This document shows, one piece after another, positions 30,913 through 38,180 of a stretch of 64,000 nt of DNA; within the stretch, counting starts at the first letter, position 1, and each line of letters opens with the position of its first letter. A model generated the notes under the pieces. The model made no database searches. It worked only from the letters and a program-made list of their open reading frames with translations, and was not told the origin of the DNA. The stretch is from Alistipes sp. (GTDB lineage: Bacteria; Bacteroidota; Bacteroidia; Bacteroidales; Rikenellaceae). Both the position numbers and the translations under genes were made by a program. The stretch is from NCBI GenBank assembly GCA_017547175.1, contig JAFYQI010000007.1, positions 1 to 64,000 of the forward strand. Direction: 5' to 3'.

Positions 30913-32733
30913 CTACTCCTCGTCCTTGGCGGCCTTCTTGCCCTTCTTGGCCTCAGCCTCCATGGCGCTCTTCAGAGCAGCCAGACCTGCGATGTCACCC
31001 AACGTGGTCTTCTCAACCGAAGCGTTGATCTTCTTCACGGTCGACTTCGTAGCGTCAGCAGCAGCGCGCTTCTCGGCCTTCTCGGCAGCGATCTCGGCAC
31101 GCTTAGCGTCCTCATACGTGCGAACGTGCGACAGGGTGATGCGCTTGGTAGCCTTCGAGAACTCGATCACCTTAAACGAGAGCGTCTCACCGGCCTTCGG
31201 GGTCGTACCGTCCTCCTTCGTGAGCTGACGAGCGGGGCAGAAGCCCTCTACGTTCTCAGCCAACGTAACAACGGCACCCTTATCGGTTACCTCCGTGATC
31301 GTACCCTCAACTACGCTGTCAACGGGGAACTGAGCCTCGATAGCTGCCCAGGGGTTCTCCTCGAGCTGCTTGTGACCCAGCGACAGACGGCGGTTCTCCT
31401 TGTCGATCTCGAGAACTACAACCTCAATATCGGCACCTACCTGCGTGAACTCACCCGGGTGCTTGATCTTCTTCGTCCACGAGAGATCCGAGATGTGGAT
31501 CAGACCGTCGATACCCTCCTCGATCTCAACGAATACGCCAAAGTTCGTGAAGTTACGTACCTTAGCCGTGCACTTTGCACCTACGGGGTAGCGCGTCTCG
31601 ATCGACTCCCAGGGATCAGCCGAAAGCTGCTTGATACCCAGCGACATCTTGCGCTCGGCACGATCGAGGGTCAGCACTACAGCCTCAACCTCGTCACCAA
31701 CCTTCATGAACTCCTGAGCCGAACGCAGGTGCTGGCTCCACGACATCTCCGATACGTGGATCAGACCCTCAACACCGGCAGCAATCTCAACGAATGCACC
31801 GTAGTCGGCCATAACGACAACCTTACCCTTAACCTTGTCACCAACTGCGAGGTTCTGATCGAGAGCCTCCCAGGGATGAGCGGTGAGCTGCTTCAGACCC
31901 AAAGCGATGCGCTTCTTCTGATCGTCGAAGTCCAGGATAACCACCTGAATCTTCTGATCCAGAGCTACAACCTCCTCGGGGTGGCTTACGCGGCCCCACG
32001 ACAGGTCGGTGATGTGGATCAGACCGTCAACACCACCCAGGTCAACGAATACACCGTACGAAGTGATGTTCTTGACGGTACCCTCGAGGATCTGACCCTT
32101 CTCGAGCTTCGACATGATCACCTGCTTCTGGGCCTCGAGCTCAGCCTCAATCAGAGCCTTGTGCGAAACCACTACGTTGCGGAACTCCTGGTTGATCTTT
32201 ACGACCTTGAACTCCATCGTCTTGTCAACATAGATATCGTAGTCGCGGATGGGCTTCACATCGATCTGCGAGCCGGGGAGGAAGGCCTCGATGCCGAATA
32301 CGTCGACAATCATACCACCCTTCGTGCGGCACTTGATGTAACCCTTGATGATCTCGTCCTTCTCGAGGGCCTCGTTTACACGATCCCACGACTTGAGCTG
32401 ACGAGCCTTCTTATGCGAGAGCGACAGCTGGCCGTTCTTATCCTCAGCCGAATCAACATACACCTCAACGGCGTCACCGATCTGCAACTCGGGGTTGTAA
32501 CGGAACTCGGCAACCGAGATGATACCCTCCGACTTGTAGCCGATATTTACCAGCACCTCACGCTTCGTGATACCGGTTACCGTACCCTCGACAACCTCGC
32601 CAACATTGATGTTCGACAGCGTCTTGTCGTAAGCCTCGGTGATCTGCTCCTTCGACTGGTCATAAAGACCCAGCTCCTGCTCAAATGCGTTCCAATCGAA
32701 ATTCTCGTTGGAAACCTTCTTGATTTCTTCCAT
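30913..32733 (-). CDS. rpsA: 30S ribosomal protein S1
   Basis: S1 holds mRNA on the small ribosomal subunit. The 606-residue protein carries six S1 RNA-binding domains in tandem, beginning near NVGEVVEGTVTGI, DEIIKGYIKCRTKGG, KGQILEGTVKNITSYG, VGDKVKGKVVVMADYG, VGAKCTAKVRNFTNFG and VDSVVEGTITEVTDKG. A Lys/Glu-rich tail follows. Strong codon bias fits high expression. Promoter at 32832-32862, leader of about 90 nt, terminator at 30855-30887: a single-gene transcript. Confidence 0.97.
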   Translation of the reverse strand: MEEIKKVSNENFDWNAFEQELGLYDQSKEQITEAYDKTLSNINVGEVVEGTVTGITKREVLVNIGYKSEGIISVAEFRYNPELQIGDAVEVYVDSAEDKNGQLSLSHKKARQLKSWDRVNEALEKDEIIKGYIKCRTKGGMIVDVFGIEAFLPGSQIDVKPIRDYDIYVDKTMEFKVVKINQEFRNVVVSHKALIEAELEAQKQVIMSKLEKGQILEGTVKNITSYGVFVDLGGVDGLIHITDLSWGRVSHPEEVVALDQKIQVVILDFDDQKKRIALGLKQLTAHPWEALDQNLAVGDKVKGKVVVMADYGAFVEIAAGVEGLIHVSEMSWSQHLRSAQEFMKVGDEVEAVVLTLDRAERKMSLGIKQLSADPWESIETRYPVGAKCTAKVRNFTNFGVFVEIEEGIDGLIHISDLSWTKKIKHPGEFTQVGADIEVVVLEIDKENRRLSLGHKQLEENPWAAIEAQFPVDSVVEGTITEVTDKGAVVTLAENVEGFCPARQLTKEDGTTPKAGETLSFKVIEFSKATKRITLSHVRTYEDAKRAEIAAEKAEKRAAADATKSTVKKINASVEKTTLGDIAGLAALKSAMEAEAKKGKKAAKDEE

Positions 32734-32862
32734 TTCGGAAATTCTTTTTGCGATACAATCGCTCGTTAAATGGTTAATATTAAAAAGTTTACCCCAACCA
32801 CACGCGCCTTACGCGCGTAGTTTTGGGAGTGCAAAGGTAGTGTAAGGCAATCGAAAAACAAA
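32734..32862 (-). promoter_or_regulatory. rpsA promoter and hairpin leader
   Basis: Minus strand -33 TTTG (32859-32862) and -7 TACCTTTG (32832-32839), spacing 19 bp. The leader of about 90 nt begins with ACGCGC / GCGCGT, a six-pair hairpin near the 5' end, followed by an A/T-rich stretch to the start codon. rpsA leaders are autoregulated in some bacteria; here that is only a possibility. The stretch 32863-33039 beyond it holds one hairpin, CAAGGACG/CGTCCTTG (32967-32996), and no gene. Confidence 0.65.
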
Positions 32863-33039
32863 ATTTATCACGCGAAAAGTGCAAAAAATCAGCAAGAAAG
32901 CGTATATCCAGACTCTTTTTCCGAAGCTTATTCCGTAAAATCGACACGCCTACGACCAAAGACAATCAAGGACGCGGGATCTGTTCCACGTCCTTGCAAA
33001 ATCATATCAGGAGGTAACCGAAGTCCCCCTACTGCCAAT

Positions 33040-33495
33040 TTACACTTCGAGATTTACATCGAACAACTCGTGCCAAGGCAAGCCCTGCACACCCGGTTCT
33101 GCCAAGAAGGGATCGGGATCCAACTCCTCAACATTGAACACACCGGCTCCACGCCAAAGACCCTTGGTCCACATCGAAGCACCTAGCACGGCAGGCACAC
33201 CCGTCGTGTAGCTTACAGCCTGCGTCCCGGTCTACTTGAAGGCTTGCTCGTGGTCGCAATTGTTGTAAATGTAATAGGTGCGCTCCTTCCCATCTTCAAT
33301 ACCGCGAATGCGGCAACCGATCGAGGTCTGTCCCGTATAGTTGGCACCCAAAGACTTGGGATAGGGCAACACAGCATCACACTTCGACTTGATACGGCTG
33401 GCCAACATTACATCCGTAAAGATGGGGTTAGCAGCAATCTTTTGCGTCACAACCGTACCAACACCTCCGGCACCGATAATCAATGCTCTACACAT
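33040..33495 (-). pseudogene. Decayed saccharopine dehydrogenase-family gene
   Basis: The frame from ATG 33495 encodes an intact-looking NAD-binding start (MCRALIIGAGGVGTVVTQKI, LASRIKSKCDA) that then jumps to the C-terminal part of the same family (LGANYTGQTSIGCRIRGI, ERTYYIYNN). An in-frame TAG at 33232-33234 interrupts it, after which the frame continues (TGTQAVSYTTGVPAVLGA, PDPF) to TAA at 33040. Full-length relatives, saccharopine or carboxynorspermidine dehydrogenases of spermidine synthesis, have about 400 residues, so an in-frame loss of roughly 220-250 codons is inferred along with the nonsense mutation. It is probably nonfunctional. Confidence 0.85.
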
Positions 33496-33603
33496 AGGGA
33501 CACTCAGTTTTGATAGGTTATACAATATCCACATTATACCCGAGCCCACACACCTCTATGGAGCCACAAGGTCGGCAAAATATCTATAAAAATATAATTT
33601 TAT

Positions 33604-33634
33604 TTTGGTAAAACAAAAATAAGCGCTACATTTG
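33604..33634 (+). promoter_or_regulatory. Promoter of tRNA-Lys
   Basis: -33 TTTG (33604-33607) and -7 TACATTTG (33627-33634), spacing 19 bp, 36 bp before the tRNA. Confidence 0.75.
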
Positions 33635-33670
33635 CAGCACCAAAGCGGATTCGTCCGAATTTTTGGCGTT

Positions 33671-33743
33671 GATCTCGTAGCTCAGCAGGTAGAGCACAAC
33701 ACTTTTAATGTTGGGGTCCTGGGTTCGAGCCCCAGCGGGATCA
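33671..33743 (+). tRNA. tRNA-Lys (anticodon UUU)
   Basis: A 73-nt cloverleaf: acceptor GATCTCG/CGGGATC with one G-T pair, D arm GCTC/GAGC, anticodon stem CAACA/TGTTG with loop CTTTTAA (anticodon TTT), T arm CTGGG-TTCGAGC-CCCAG, discriminator A. The gene encodes only CC of the CCA end. It has its own promoter and terminator. Confidence 0.97.
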
Positions 33744-33753
33744 CCTTTAAGCG

Positions 33754-33787
33754 ACAACCGAAGCATCTGCTTCGGTTGTTTGTTTTG
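33754..33787 (+). terminator. Terminator after tRNA-Lys
   Basis: ACAACCGAAGCA / TGCTTCGGTTGT, a perfect 12-bp stem with a two-base spacer, then TTGTTTTG. Confidence 0.85.
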
Positions 33788-33934
33788 TAGTGGGTATATC
33801 GTGCGCAAGCGCCCATGCCCACCACAAAACAAACACCGGCTGGGCCGGTTTGTCGCATTCGCCGGGCATTATAATAAGGGTTGCGAGGATAATTGTATTC
33901 AATTTTCAGCGGTATCCTCGCGAGTGCTTCGCAC
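33779..33934 (+). other. Chain of hairpins between tRNA-Lys and its repeated 3' end
   Basis: Four hairpins follow one another: 33779-33794 with 33818-33833 (15 of 16 pairs); CCGGC/GCCGG (about 33838-33849); GCGAGGATA with TATCCTCGC (33883-33891, 33913-33921); AGTGC/GCACT (33924-33935). No open frame of note is seen. It could be an unrecognised structured RNA or the body of a small inserted element. Confidence 0.5.
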
Positions 33935-33956
33935 TTCGAGCCACCAGCGGGATCAC
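33935..33956 (+). repeat. Imperfect copy of the tRNA-Lys 3' end
   Basis: TTCGAGCCACCAGCGGGATCAC matches 33724-33744 of the tRNA-Lys gene (T loop to 3' end) with one inserted base and no other change. It lies 211 bp downstream and is followed within 8 bp by a second terminator. The preceding sequence cannot complete a tRNA. The pattern fits an attachment-site duplication from integration at the tRNA 3' end. Confidence 0.7.
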
Positions 33957-33963
33957 GAAAAAA

Positions 33964-33993
33964 GGAGAGTTGAAAAACTCTCCTTTTTTTTTT
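33964..33993 (+). terminator. Second terminator, after the tRNA 3'-end copy
   Basis: GGAGAGTT-GAAA-AACTCTCC followed by ten T. Possibly the original tRNA-Lys terminator. A further hairpin, CCTCCCTT/AAGGGAGG, lies at 34022-34041. Confidence 0.85.
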
Positions 33994-34053
33994 GTGATCC
34001 GATATAGACAATCCCTCCAAACCTCCCTTTGATAAGGGAGGCTTCAGGTTCTA

Positions 34054-34224
34054 TTACTCTTTATACTCCAAGATATAATTATGGAAGATTACTGACATCT
34101 TGTCGCTGGCATCTTTTAAAAACGCAAACAGCTCTGTTTTATTTTCTGTATCAAAACAGAGATACTCCCGTTCATCTTTTACTCGACACGTTACTTTATC
34201 AGTTAATCTCTGCCTAACTAGCGA
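34054..34224 (-). pseudogene. Coding fragment without a start codon
   Basis: An open frame of 56 codons ending at TAA 34054 has a protein-like sequence (REYLCFDTENKTELFAFLKD, VIFHNYILEYKE) but no ATG, GTG or TTG near its beginning. It is clearly more A/T-rich than its neighbours. It is best read as the 3' remnant of a lost gene of unknown kind, possibly imported. It sits 12 bp downstream of the GH105 stop. Confidence 0.4.
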
Positions 34225-34236
34225 TTACCCGGCAGA

Positions 34237-35370
34237 TCAAAGTTTATAGACCTCCGAGCCGGCCAAGAGGAAACATCCGGTGCCGAAATCCTCAAAGTCG
34301 GGCTTCGAGTCGTAAGCCACGGGCTGACCATCTTTGGGCTCTTTACCCGTGCCCTGCACATAGCCCAAATAGCCGTTGGGATGAACCGCTTCGGCAACCA
34401 TTGCATTCCACGCTTTGGTCACTACTGGCAGATACTCCGCGCGATCAAGCACACCATTATTAATACCCCACGCCATACCATAGACAAAGAGTGCCGTTCC
34501 GGTAAGCTCCTTACCGCCATAATTCGAGGCGTCGTGCAGACTCACATTCCAGAATCCATCTTCACGCTGACACGCCTTCAACGCTTTGCACATAGCCTTC
34601 AAATCGTTGAGATAAAGATTGCGATGAGCCGCATGCTCGGGCAACTCCTGTAGCACACGCACCAACGCGGCCACAACCCAACCATTACCGCGCGACCAAT
34701 AGCAGTCCTCCCCGTTCGGTTCCTGATAGGGAGGCACGAAGGAGGCATCGCGCCACCAAAGTCCCTCTTTCTGATTGAACAGACCTCCGGCCAACGTATT
34801 GCGTGCCCAGGCATACATGGCGTGTGCCTTTTCGTAGTAACGAGCATCCCCCTTCAGCGTGCCGAGTTTCACCAGCACGGGCATACCCATCTGGATGGCG
34901 TCGATCCAGGTCCAATCCTCCACCTGCGGCGTGTTAACCAACATATCGCACAAGGCGATCGTCTTGCGCAAACGCTCGGGGTGCGGCTCCAGGCGATACA
35001 GATCAATATAGGTCTGCGAGCAACAGTAGTTGTCGGCATTGCGGGTCGTCGTGTCGTCACGACGCATGCCCCACTTATGGAAATCGGCCCAACGCACCGC
35101 ATAGTCGTAGTAGCGGTTGTCGGGACAGATAGCATAGAGCGCCATCAACCCCTCGTAATAGACCGCTCGCGTCCAAATATTCGACTCATAGACCTTCTTG
35201 CGCGAATAGTAAGGCATCACGGCTGTCGGATCAGCATACTTTTTCGTCATCAGATAGTCGTTCACCCGACGAGTTACCTCCAAGCGGGCCTCTCGAGTCG
35301 GCAGTTCCTGGGCCGATAGTGTAGCAACAAAGCCCAACAAGGCTGCTACACAAAGAATCAATCGTTTCAT
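34237..35370 (-). CDS. Glycoside hydrolase family 105 (unsaturated rhamnogalacturonyl hydrolase)
   Basis: GH105 enzymes remove the unsaturated galacturonyl residue left by pectate or rhamnogalacturonan lyases. The 377-residue protein has a signal peptide (1-20, cut after LSAQ), an alpha/alpha barrel, and family segments NIWTRAVYYEGLMALY, WTWIDAIQMGMPVL (with the catalytic-type Asp) and YWSRGNGWVVAALVRVL. Length is normal. Its ATG overlaps the GH106 stop by 4 bp, so both are co-translated. Together they point to rhamnogalacturonan breakdown in the periplasm. Confidence 0.93.
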   Translation of the reverse strand: MKRLILCVAALLGFVATLSAQELPTREARLEVTRRVNDYLMTKKYADPTAVMPYYSRKKVYESNIWTRAVYYEGLMALYAICPDNRYYDYAVRWADFHKWGMRRDDTTTRNADNYCCSQTYIDLYRLEPHPERLRKTIALCDMLVNTPQVEDWTWIDAIQMGMPVLVKLGTLKGDARYYEKAHAMYAWARNTLAGGLFNQKEGLWWRDASFVPPYQEPNGEDCYWSRGNGWVVAALVRVLQELPEHAAHRNLYLNDLKAMCKALKACQREDGFWNVSLHDASNYGGKELTGTALFVYGMAWGINNGVLDRAEYLPVVTKAWNAMVAEAVHPNGYLGYVQGTGKEPKDGQPVAYDSKPDFEDFGTGCFLLAGSEVYKL

Positions 35371-38180
35371 CTATCGCTTTGTTTTTGAATTTGCTCATAA
35401 TAAATCGGCGTCAGGCTCACCGTCGAATTCAATCCCGCAGGATCGGTCGGCCAATCGGCAAAGGTAAAGGTTTTGGCACCTGTCACCGAGGCAATGTTGG
35501 CATCCTTGAAGATGCGCCACGGAATCCCCTGTCGCTCCATTTCGGCAATGCGGTTCGAGTGTAAGTTCTTCACATCTATCTCCAGCAGGTTTTCGCCGGC
35601 ACGAAGCCAACTACCGATAGTAGTCGCATAAGGGATCGTAACCAAGGTAGCGATGCGCTCACCGTTGAGATGCACAATAGCGCTCTCACGCACATCTCCC
35701 AGGTCGAGCAACCACTCATCGGCACTCCGCGGATCTTCGACCGTAAAACGGACTGCATAACGTCCCGTTGCACTGTTAATCTTGGCTCGCGGATCGGGCA
35801 GGGAGGTCCATGCAGTCAGCGTATCGGTAACAAACTGCTCCGCAATAGTCGGCTCACTTTGCGGGAAGGAGATCGACCATCCTCGTTCGAGAGGAATCGC
35901 TTCGCCACGTGTACGGATATATTGCCACGGAGTGGTCTCAATCGGCTTCGAGAAGGTCTTGACCAGAATCGACTGTCCGGGCTCCAGTTGCAGACGCAAA
36001 TCAATCGTCCCCTGCTCGTTGGGGCGCACCATGGCCTCACCAACGCGCCCCGTCATCGGATCAAAGAGCACGGCAGCTTTCGCCGTAGTGGCTAGCGTCA
36101 CCCAACCATCGACAGGCTCCTCGTGCAACATCGAAAGGAGGTAATTATGGCCTCCCACCTCATTCTTACGGCGCAACATCACACCCCCCATCTGACGCTT
36201 GAAAGGCTCGGGACGAATCCCTGCCAACTGTACCATCGCATCAAAATCGCGACCCGTGATCACCGAGCCACGCCCCAAAGCATGGTATTCGGCAGCCGTA
36301 AAATCCTCATCAACGGGCAGTCGCTGCAATTGCGCGTGGAAAGCATCTCGTTCCGACAGACGACCAAAGCCCGGCACATCATCCGGATAGCAGTCGAGGA
36401 AGAGGATCTTAGCTCCCTTCTCGGCCAAGTCAACGAGATGCTCAAGGCTCTCGGTGGGCAATTTATGGCAGGCAGGGACGAGCAAAGCTTTGTAGCGAGC
36501 ACCACCCTCAGAGACGAGTTCGCCTCGACGCGTCGTCAAGGAACGCAGATAGCGATCCGACAGATAATCGGCATCGTAGCCTGCCGCCACCAAGGCATCC
36601 ATCGTTGCCTTCACCTGCGGAATGGTTTGATCCATCTTATGGATGCTGAACATCAAGAAGGGGTTACCGCGCTGTTCGTGCCAAATATCGTATTGCGGGA
36701 TATAGAGCAACAGATCGTTATCGGGCTCTCCGGCAGCAAGGAACGATTGGCAACGGGTAATGTAGCGGGTCAGGGGGTACACATCCTCCCAAAGGGCAGC
36801 CGTCGGGCTGAGGTTAATCGAGGCATAAAATCGCCATCCGGGGAACGCTACCCCCTTGGGCGAATAGGGCGCTCCGTGGAAGACCAAATGGTTGACTCCC
36901 GCCGCCAACATCAGGTCGATTTCGGGCTTACATTGCGCCAACGAGGTGCGGAAGTGCTCGGTCAGCCAGGTCAGCGCCTCGGCTGACGTGAGGGGCTTAC
37001 CAGTGAGATGTGCAGCCGACGAGGCAAACTTCAAAACGGCAGGCGTTCCATCGTTGGGCTTAAGAATCGAATCTTTGCGCAACCGTTTCAAATCAAACTC
37101 CGAGCGGCCAAACGACTCACACTCGGGAATATCGACTGCGGCATACAGATCGATCAGCGTCGCCGGCGAGCCATGCGCCTGATTACGGGTCTGTGCCCCG
37201 TGACGATGCGCCCAACGACTCCAAGGTCGGGTAAAGTGGTTGAGCAGCAATTTGGAGATCACCTCGCGGTAATCGCTCACAATACGTGCCGAGCGTTCTG
37301 AATCGCCATCACCAGCCAATTCGGGCAGATAGTCACGCAGGTCATACCCCCACATCTCGCGGAAATAATCGACCACCTTATCGTCCCAACTTGCGCCATA
37401 GACCTCAAACGAGTCGTTGAAGAAGGTATCGGGATAAGGGGTATCGCTCGCATCAAAGGCCTCTTCGAAACGTTCCAGATAGTAATTCAACGTGCGACGA
37501 TCGTAGGGATTCATCACCAATCCTTCACCTCCCGGAGCTGCACGTTTCACCTTTTGGAAGGTACGTCCCGAAAAGAGCGCATAAAGCACCCATCCATCAC
37601 CCGTAGGGGGTTGCCAGCGCAGGGTATCTTGTTCGACCAGCGGCGTCAGATCGATTCGTTCACCCTGGCGTACGGCCTGCAGGCGAATCAGTTCCGCTAC
37701 CGATTGCTGCTTGACCTCTAGCGGACGAATTGCACCGACAAAGAGCGAATCGGTGCCGACAGGATAACGCTCGAGGATGAATTTGCGAGCCGAATGGCCG
37801 GTCGTAATGGTCGGGCCACCAAACGGCCAACCCGTACCGTTGTTCATATCGACACCCAACCCTAAACGTCGCGCCTCTTTCATCGTATGCTGCAAGAGTT
37901 CCATCCAACGCGGCGAGAGGTATTCGACATCATTCGCCTCGTTGTTCTGCACGCCGTAGATCGGCGTGATCTCCACACCACCAAATCCTTTGGCGGCAAA
38001 TTGCTCCAGGTTGTAGGTTAGACCCTCTTCATCGACGGCACTACCCAACCACCACCATCGCAGGTAGGGATGATGCTCCTTTTCGACCGGATACCAGGCA
38101 TCGGGGCGATCAGACGAACAGGCAAACAAGGTGATCAGCAAACAGCTGACAAATAGTTTTGATAAAAGAGTTCGGTGCAT
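35367..38180 (-). CDS. Alpha-L-rhamnosidase, GH106 family lipoprotein
   Basis: The enzyme removes terminal L-rhamnose from pectin side chains. The 937-residue protein has a lipobox with Cys21 (LFACSSDR), then the GH106 start HPYLRWWWLGSAVDEEGL, the segment MNNGTGWPFGGP, and a C-terminal jelly-roll (about 800-910). It is full length for the family. Three repeated -7 elements lie upstream (38198-38363). It is the first gene of a two-gene unit with GH105. Confidence 0.92.
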   Translation of the reverse strand: MHRTLLSKLFVSCLLITLFACSSDRPDAWYPVEKEHHPYLRWWWLGSAVDEEGLTYNLEQFAAKGFGGVEITPIYGVQNNEANDVEYLSPRWMELLQHTMKEARRLGLGVDMNNGTGWPFGGPTITTGHSARKFILERYPVGTDSLFVGAIRPLEVKQQSVAELIRLQAVRQGERIDLTPLVEQDTLRWQPPTGDGWVLYALFSGRTFQKVKRAAPGGEGLVMNPYDRRTLNYYLERFEEAFDASDTPYPDTFFNDSFEVYGASWDDKVVDYFREMWGYDLRDYLPELAGDGDSERSARIVSDYREVISKLLLNHFTRPWSRWAHRHGAQTRNQAHGSPATLIDLYAAVDIPECESFGRSEFDLKRLRKDSILKPNDGTPAVLKFASSAAHLTGKPLTSAEALTWLTEHFRTSLAQCKPEIDLMLAAGVNHLVFHGAPYSPKGVAFPGWRFYASINLSPTAALWEDVYPLTRYITRCQSFLAAGEPDNDLLLYIPQYDIWHEQRGNPFLMFSIHKMDQTIPQVKATMDALVAAGYDADYLSDRYLRSLTTRRGELVSEGGARYKALLVPACHKLPTESLEHLVDLAEKGAKILFLDCYPDDVPGFGRLSERDAFHAQLQRLPVDEDFTAAEYHALGRGSVITGRDFDAMVQLAGIRPEPFKRQMGGVMLRRKNEVGGHNYLLSMLHEEPVDGWVTLATTAKAAVLFDPMTGRVGEAMVRPNEQGTIDLRLQLEPGQSILVKTFSKPIETTPWQYIRTRGEAIPLERGWSISFPQSEPTIAEQFVTDTLTAWTSLPDPRAKINSATGRYAVRFTVEDPRSADEWLLDLGDVRESAIVHLNGERIATLVTIPYATTIGSWLRAGENLLEIDVKNLHSNRIAEMERQGIPWRIFKDANIASVTGAKTFTFADWPTDPAGLNSTVSLTPIYYEQIQKQSDR

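Follow-up and report, generated by a model that had tools for sequence, protein, structure and literature searches.

The 211-bp unit that follows the tRNA-Lys gene in the window, the whole 64,000-nt stretch of Alistipes sp. DNA analysed here, is one of hundreds of like elements located behind many different tRNA genes, and this family of hairpin units has so far been detected only in one Alistipes-type genus of mostly ruminant-gut bacteria. The unit appears to represent a tiny mobile element of a kind not described before; a search of the literature on tRNA-associated repeats, with most subscription journals outside its reach, found no description of such elements. As the best explanation we propose non-autonomous miniature integrative elements at tRNA 3' ends, joined at the T-loop sequence TTCRA by a putative enzyme acting in trans, a reading that in our judgement has an even chance of being correct.

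The anatomy of the tRNA-Lys locus is summarized in Table 1. The preliminary description had noted that the last 21 bases of the tRNA recur downstream with one inserted base, and this was confirmed in the sequence. The start-to-start distance of the two tail copies equals the repeat period of 211, and a repeat search recovered an exact 13-mer portion of the repeat. With the inserted base allowed, the distal copy matches at 21/21 positions, compared to a maximum of 13-16/21 for shuffled tRNA ends in downstream regions of equal length. It does not belong to a second true tRNA, since ARAGORN and Rfam both give a single one. At gathering score, the tRNA-Lys alone passed the Rfam search of positions 32000-36000, and no known structured RNA family was found in the unit. 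The unit has no ORF of note, in line with the initial remark that no integrase remains. A covariance model match to its core spans 33876-33942 (81.6 bits), and the CAAG apex of the second palindrome is also present in most other units inspected. A similar arrangement of terminator and palindrome follows the element-free tRNA-Lys of another species (G005).

Table 1. Features of the tRNA-Lys locus (positions in the window; a dot marks features given without strand).
Feature	Position	Strand	Basis or detail
tRNA-Lys (ttt), intact	33671..33745	+	ARAGORN; Rfam tRNA 68.8 bits
Proximal T54-N73 copy TTCGAGCCCCAGCGGGATCAC, first part of the 211-bp unit	33724..33744	+	sequence; T-loop boundary from mismatch and repeat-end analysis
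Outer stem, 5' arm GCGACAACC	33751..33759	+	predicted fold, pairs with 33847-33856
Proximal terminator hairpin, element-supplied	33754..33779	+	12/12 inverted repeat
Second palindrome, T-run paired with A-run, apex GCGCAAGCGC, CAAG loop at 33806-33809	33777..33835	.	21-nt arms, 90%
Outer stem, 3' arm GGTTTGTCGC	33847..33856	+	predicted fold
Core: GGGTTGC, 9-bp stem 33883-33891 / 33913-33921, loop ending TTTTCAGCGG	33878..33921	+	covariance model match, covariation
Terminal hairpin GTGC-TTC-GCAC, immediately 5' of the copy's T54	33924..33934	+	core alignment; hairpin-at-joint test
Distal copy of tRNA-Lys T54-N73 TTCGAGCCACCAGCGGGATCAC, one inserted A	33935..33956	+	sequence, repeat search, shuffled control
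Distal terminator within a longer palindrome including the tRNA tail (GGATCAC...GTGATCC)	33950..34000	.	inverted-repeat search

At 34000-34046 of the window a dispersed repeat, ATATAGACAATCCCTCCAAACCTCCCTTTGATAAGGGAGGCTT, was observed (also at L011, L013, L014, L015 and L016), which has at least 8 copies in the own genome. It is located behind tRNAs and protein genes alike, usually directly after a terminator palindrome that is lengthened by the end of that same gene, copied in inverted orientation.

The same arrangement is found behind tRNA-His in the own genome, where the tail recurs after a hairpin of different stem sequence and the same pairing, and behind Lys, His, Val, Gln, Pro, Ser, Arg and Leu tRNAs in genomes of the same genus. 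The general order is tRNA, proximal terminator, palindrome with an apex that is usually CAAG, outer stem, core, terminal hairpin, TTCRA with the tRNA 3' end, and a second terminator; units measure about 155-340 bp and each lacks an ORF. A covariance model of the core, built from alignment A1, matched in 47/61 sampled same-genus genomes, with up to 13 matches per genome, and in none of 294 other Bacteroidales genomes under strict filters, two of these being from the same family. The 70 units with tRNA context represent 22 anticodons. When all tRNAs were surveyed for tail copies, 6/40 in the own genome and 10/35 in G055 were positive, compared to 0/31 in the element-free G069 after one tandem-tRNA artefact had been discarded.

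When 84,980 species genomes were scanned with the pattern, 53 stretches were returned; Alistipes or Rikenellaceae MAGs, mostly of the ruminant gut, account for nearly all of them. A same-strand tRNA lies at most 700 bp upstream at 45 of the 57 pattern sites, and 6/57 are too close to a contig or stretch end to judge. The other six comprise three that look like chance matches in coding DNA, an Asp-type core array close to its contig end (L178) and two Met-type cores behind another mobile element (L185). In the Met-type arrays of G020 and RGIG6411 a tRNA-Met tail stands upstream and the intact tRNA is missing, apparently because another mobile element intervenes. No tRNA accompanies the matches in Oceanicaulis, Syntrophaceae and Chitinophagales, which look like chance, while contigs assigned to Paludibacteraceae (L163) and Clostridia (L186) carry real cores at their starts and may be misbinned.

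The search for the segment elsewhere, proposed at the outset, thus uncovered a large family behind many tRNAs, and the segment is far from universal among relatives, being absent from 14/61 same-genus and all 294 other genomes. The initial interpretation as the scar of one larger element is not supported: no larger integrase-bearing version was found, and the existence of a family in 47/61 genomes and behind 22 anticodon types, with a conserved and covarying core, leads us to reject a one-off scar in favour of a discrete recurring element.

The core consensus consists of GGTTG and a 9-bp stem whose loop has TTTTCARNGG as its last bases; a longer variant also occurs. Stem pairing reaches 97.5% over the 66 distinct cores, in which 174 double changes and about 8/854 G-U cells were counted; these counts lean toward the structure because the alignment was fitted to it, and slid controls all drop to 33-47%. 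In six tail copies without a recognised core a hairpin still stands immediately 5' of the joint, whereas stems of at least 4 bp occur at 12% of random positions. The successive hairpins reported behind tRNA-Lys are real, the inverted-repeat search adding one at 33958-33989 to the two palindromes of Table 1, and both strands give folding z-scores of about -6 (+: -6.06, -: -6.61), which points to DNA palindromes rather than to an RNA made from one strand. A strand bias seen in raw folding energies vanished under composition control. Given this lack of bias and the near absence of G-U pairs, we rejected a structured RNA working in the tRNA transcript.

Variants with a different core were observed at tRNA-Thr (cgt) of the own genome (L015/L242, C7:597879) and at tRNA-Asp of G018 (L060); in these, part of the tRNA T-arm recurs downstream in inverted orientation, and next comes the dispersed repeat or a similar sequence. 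At two loci (L178 in RGIG7704 and L071 in G049) the core alone is repeated several times head to tail with no tRNA tails between.

Tail copies follow the tRNA beside which they lie. In 54/70 units, 19-21 of the 21 positions agree between the copy and its own tRNA, and at isoacceptor sites that discriminate between species all 151 of 151 copy letters agree with the tRNA of the own genome and none with the alternative. Mismatches concentrate at positions 54, 55 and 57 (18/22 at positions 54-57), and the bases 5' of the copy's T54 do not follow the T-stem; together this places the joint in the T-loop TTCRA. At the other end, the repeat ends no more than a few bases from N73/CCA in about 36 of the 54 units with good copies, and the sequence beyond, including the terminator, differs between the two sides. 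In the remaining good-copy units the repeat continues because a partial second unit follows. These data support the earlier proposal that a new terminator came to lie beside the tRNA and that the old 3' end and terminator were pushed downstream.

The perfect match to the own tRNA is most simply accounted for by a target-site duplication of about 16-21 bp, which makes this mechanism, with a Cas1-like or similar enzyme, the main rival of our proposal. Here the element would contain no tRNA sequence, and the repeat would arise from staggered cuts at T54-A58 and N73 of the casposase/Cas1 type or from target-primed reverse transcription. This would explain at once the 151/151 agreement and the 22 anticodon types, and it fits the end of most repeats near N73/CCA. 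It also fits the few near full-length matches that exist across tRNAs (His, Glu and Ser about 71%, Pro-tgg and Pro-cgg 87%) and the Cys and Ser elements, which share their left part only. However, no conserved left end is found on the N73 side, and the need to restore the tRNA is a better explanation for an exact end at N73/CCA. The variant with reverse transcription is further weakened because no reverse transcriptase (PF00078) is present in the own genome or in many genomes rich in the elements, e.g. G074 and G053, so that a retro-origin with a resident enzyme is not general. On balance we consider target-site duplication unlikely.

Comparison of relatives at single loci provides evidence for insertion. 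The orthologous tRNA-Gln site was compared in three species: G000 carries a full unit and a partial one, G023 a unit truncated in the core, and G049 is empty, which is the kind of unoccupied site that the preliminary description had suggested looking for. When the window flanks were joined across the unit and aligned with the element-free tRNA-Lys locus of G005, the score was 75, compared to 63 for the uninterrupted sequence. This alignment would favour insertion at tRNA-Lys, and its support is modest because the two species are distant. With the repeat, the tRNA-Gln polymorphism and the flank joining, integration at a tRNA 3' end, as originally proposed, is largely supported; the word scar is the part that failed.

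Whole-element matches mostly join the same tRNA of different genomes, such as Lys of the own genome and of G054 (89%), while between different tRNAs usually the core alone matches, implying that much of the distribution is vertical and that cores are shared across tRNAs. Over 211 nt the His elements of the own genome (L009) and of G042 (L070) show 99.5% identity, even though the T-stem of tRNA-His differs and a flanking gene compared elsewhere reaches 91%. Near-identical units also occur in tandem. Two elements of G045, one behind Lys and the other behind Gln, lie 4 kb from each other in inverted orientation, and each bears the tail of the other, which is what an inversion by crossover within the cores would produce.

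The vertical same-tRNA matches, the tandem units, the exchange of Lys and Gln tails and the failure to find an enzyme would all suit an origin within the host, in which an ancient core in a tRNA flank was multiplied and homogenised by homologous recombination and gene conversion, perhaps with a regulatory or terminator role. Such host-grown repeats leave unexplained why the same core stands behind 22 anticodon types, why the joint is always TTCRA and why the tRNA-Gln site of a sister species is empty; moreover, the transcribed strand is no more stable than its complement by the z-scores given above and so gives no sign of an RNA role. We regard this origin as quite improbable.

Larger elements are also seen at the same tRNA ends. 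Other mobile elements appear to lie between tRNA-Met and its unit, sharing the tail as attachment site (L081/L133 in G020:C46, L185 in RGIG6411), and the one at L081 contains a tyrosine recombinase gene. Behind a tRNA-Lys (L056, G020:C89) a tyrosine recombinase ORF begins immediately past the distal copy, as though this copy had served a larger element for attachment. That tyrosine-recombinase elements sit at the same tRNA ends, before and after the units, would be in keeping with left-over attL/attR scars or CIME-like islets of ordinary prophages or ICEs, which we consider very doubtful given a single covarying core shared by tRNAs that different integrases would use, units that are uniform in size and tandem, and the failure to find a larger element with the core in IMG/VR, phages, plasmids or the loci read.

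The searches for an enzyme or carrier described here were negative. No phage, viral or plasmid carrier was found, the core being absent from IMG/VR and from the phage and plasmid collections. The Y1 transposase (PF01797) was detected in 0/61 genus genomes with a positive control, and an IS200/RAYT origin was rejected on this ground. The own genome encodes five tyrosine recombinases: two that by our reading of their sequences are probably XerC and XerD, one in an excisionase-bearing element, and two orphans. The orphans were considered as mover and rejected, as their occurrence does not track the elements. No cognate integrase lies in the unit, and presence of the unit is not tracked by the recombinases of the own genome. 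Neither a circular intermediate nor strain-level movement was seen.

The proposal of miniature integrative elements moved in trans builds on the observed anatomy, the 22 anticodon types, the own-tRNA match, the joint at positions 54-57, presence and absence at one site, tandem units and the lack of ORFs. According to it, the unit itself would carry the T54-N73 segment and thus open with the tRNA 3' end from the T-loop on, followed by its own terminator, the palindromes, the core hairpin and the terminal hairpin. Insertion would join DNA within the T-loop TTCRA (tRNA positions 54-58), so that the tRNA would retain a complete 3' end and acquire the element's terminator, with the old 3' end and old terminator placed after the terminal hairpin. 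The reaction would be a site-specific strand exchange by a trans-acting recombinase, most likely of the tyrosine type, perhaps host Xer or one that passing mobile elements supply, and the terminal and core hairpins may constitute its recognition structure. Against this proposal stands that no enzyme was found among the own-genome recombinases checked; furthermore, an element could pass from one tRNA to another in this way only if its carried 3' end changed.

More speculatively, the units may represent a new class of DNA element: ORF-less hairpin cassettes for which the universal T-loop TTCRA would be a general landing site, each tRNA's own 3' end being repaired or duplicated, and which would be mobilised in folded single-stranded form by an enzyme other than Y1 or a reverse transcriptase. 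We deem this possible, if somewhat unlikely.

If the units are mobile, most of the tRNA genes in a bacterium can take up one and the same small DNA structure without harm, because a complete tRNA is always left, and this would provide a general answer to the old question why tRNA 3' ends are integration hot spots. The family would then provide many natural insertions for working out the enzyme, and its tail copies may act as extra attachment sites for larger elements at the same tRNAs.

Compared to known systems, the units resemble tRNA 3'-end integrators (phage P4-like islands, ICEs and Bacteroides NBU-type elements) in the joint from T-loop to 3' end, the direct repeat of the tRNA end and the displaced old terminator. 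The flanking direct repeat with an intact tRNA and the empty site expected of a tyrosine-recombinase-type element were found; a cognate integrase was not. Units of 155-340 bp without an integrase are unlike these integrators, which use one tRNA per integrase, whereas the units share one hairpin core behind 22 anticodon types. With REP/RAYT and IS200/IS605-derived repeats and MITEs they have in common that they are short, palindromic, non-autonomous and numerous per genome; they differ in their strict tRNA 3'-end site and orientation, their long target direct repeats and the lack of a Y1 transposase in all 61 genus genomes. Like casposons, whose Cas1 integrases act at tRNA 3' ends, they duplicate the local tRNA 3' end whatever its sequence. 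Casposons are recognised by a Cas1 integrase and terminal inverted repeats; the very small tRNA-Lys unit has no ORF, no Cas1 gene and no inverted termini at both ends. No attC boxes (RYYYAAC/GTTRRRY) were recognised by eye in core alignment A2, and on this count the units do not qualify as an integron array; they also differ from integron cassettes in lacking an ORF and in being anchored at the tRNA T-loop. What they share with such cassettes and attC is a junction beside a folded, sequence-poor hairpin conserved in its Watson-Crick structure, and units that stand in tandem, head to tail.
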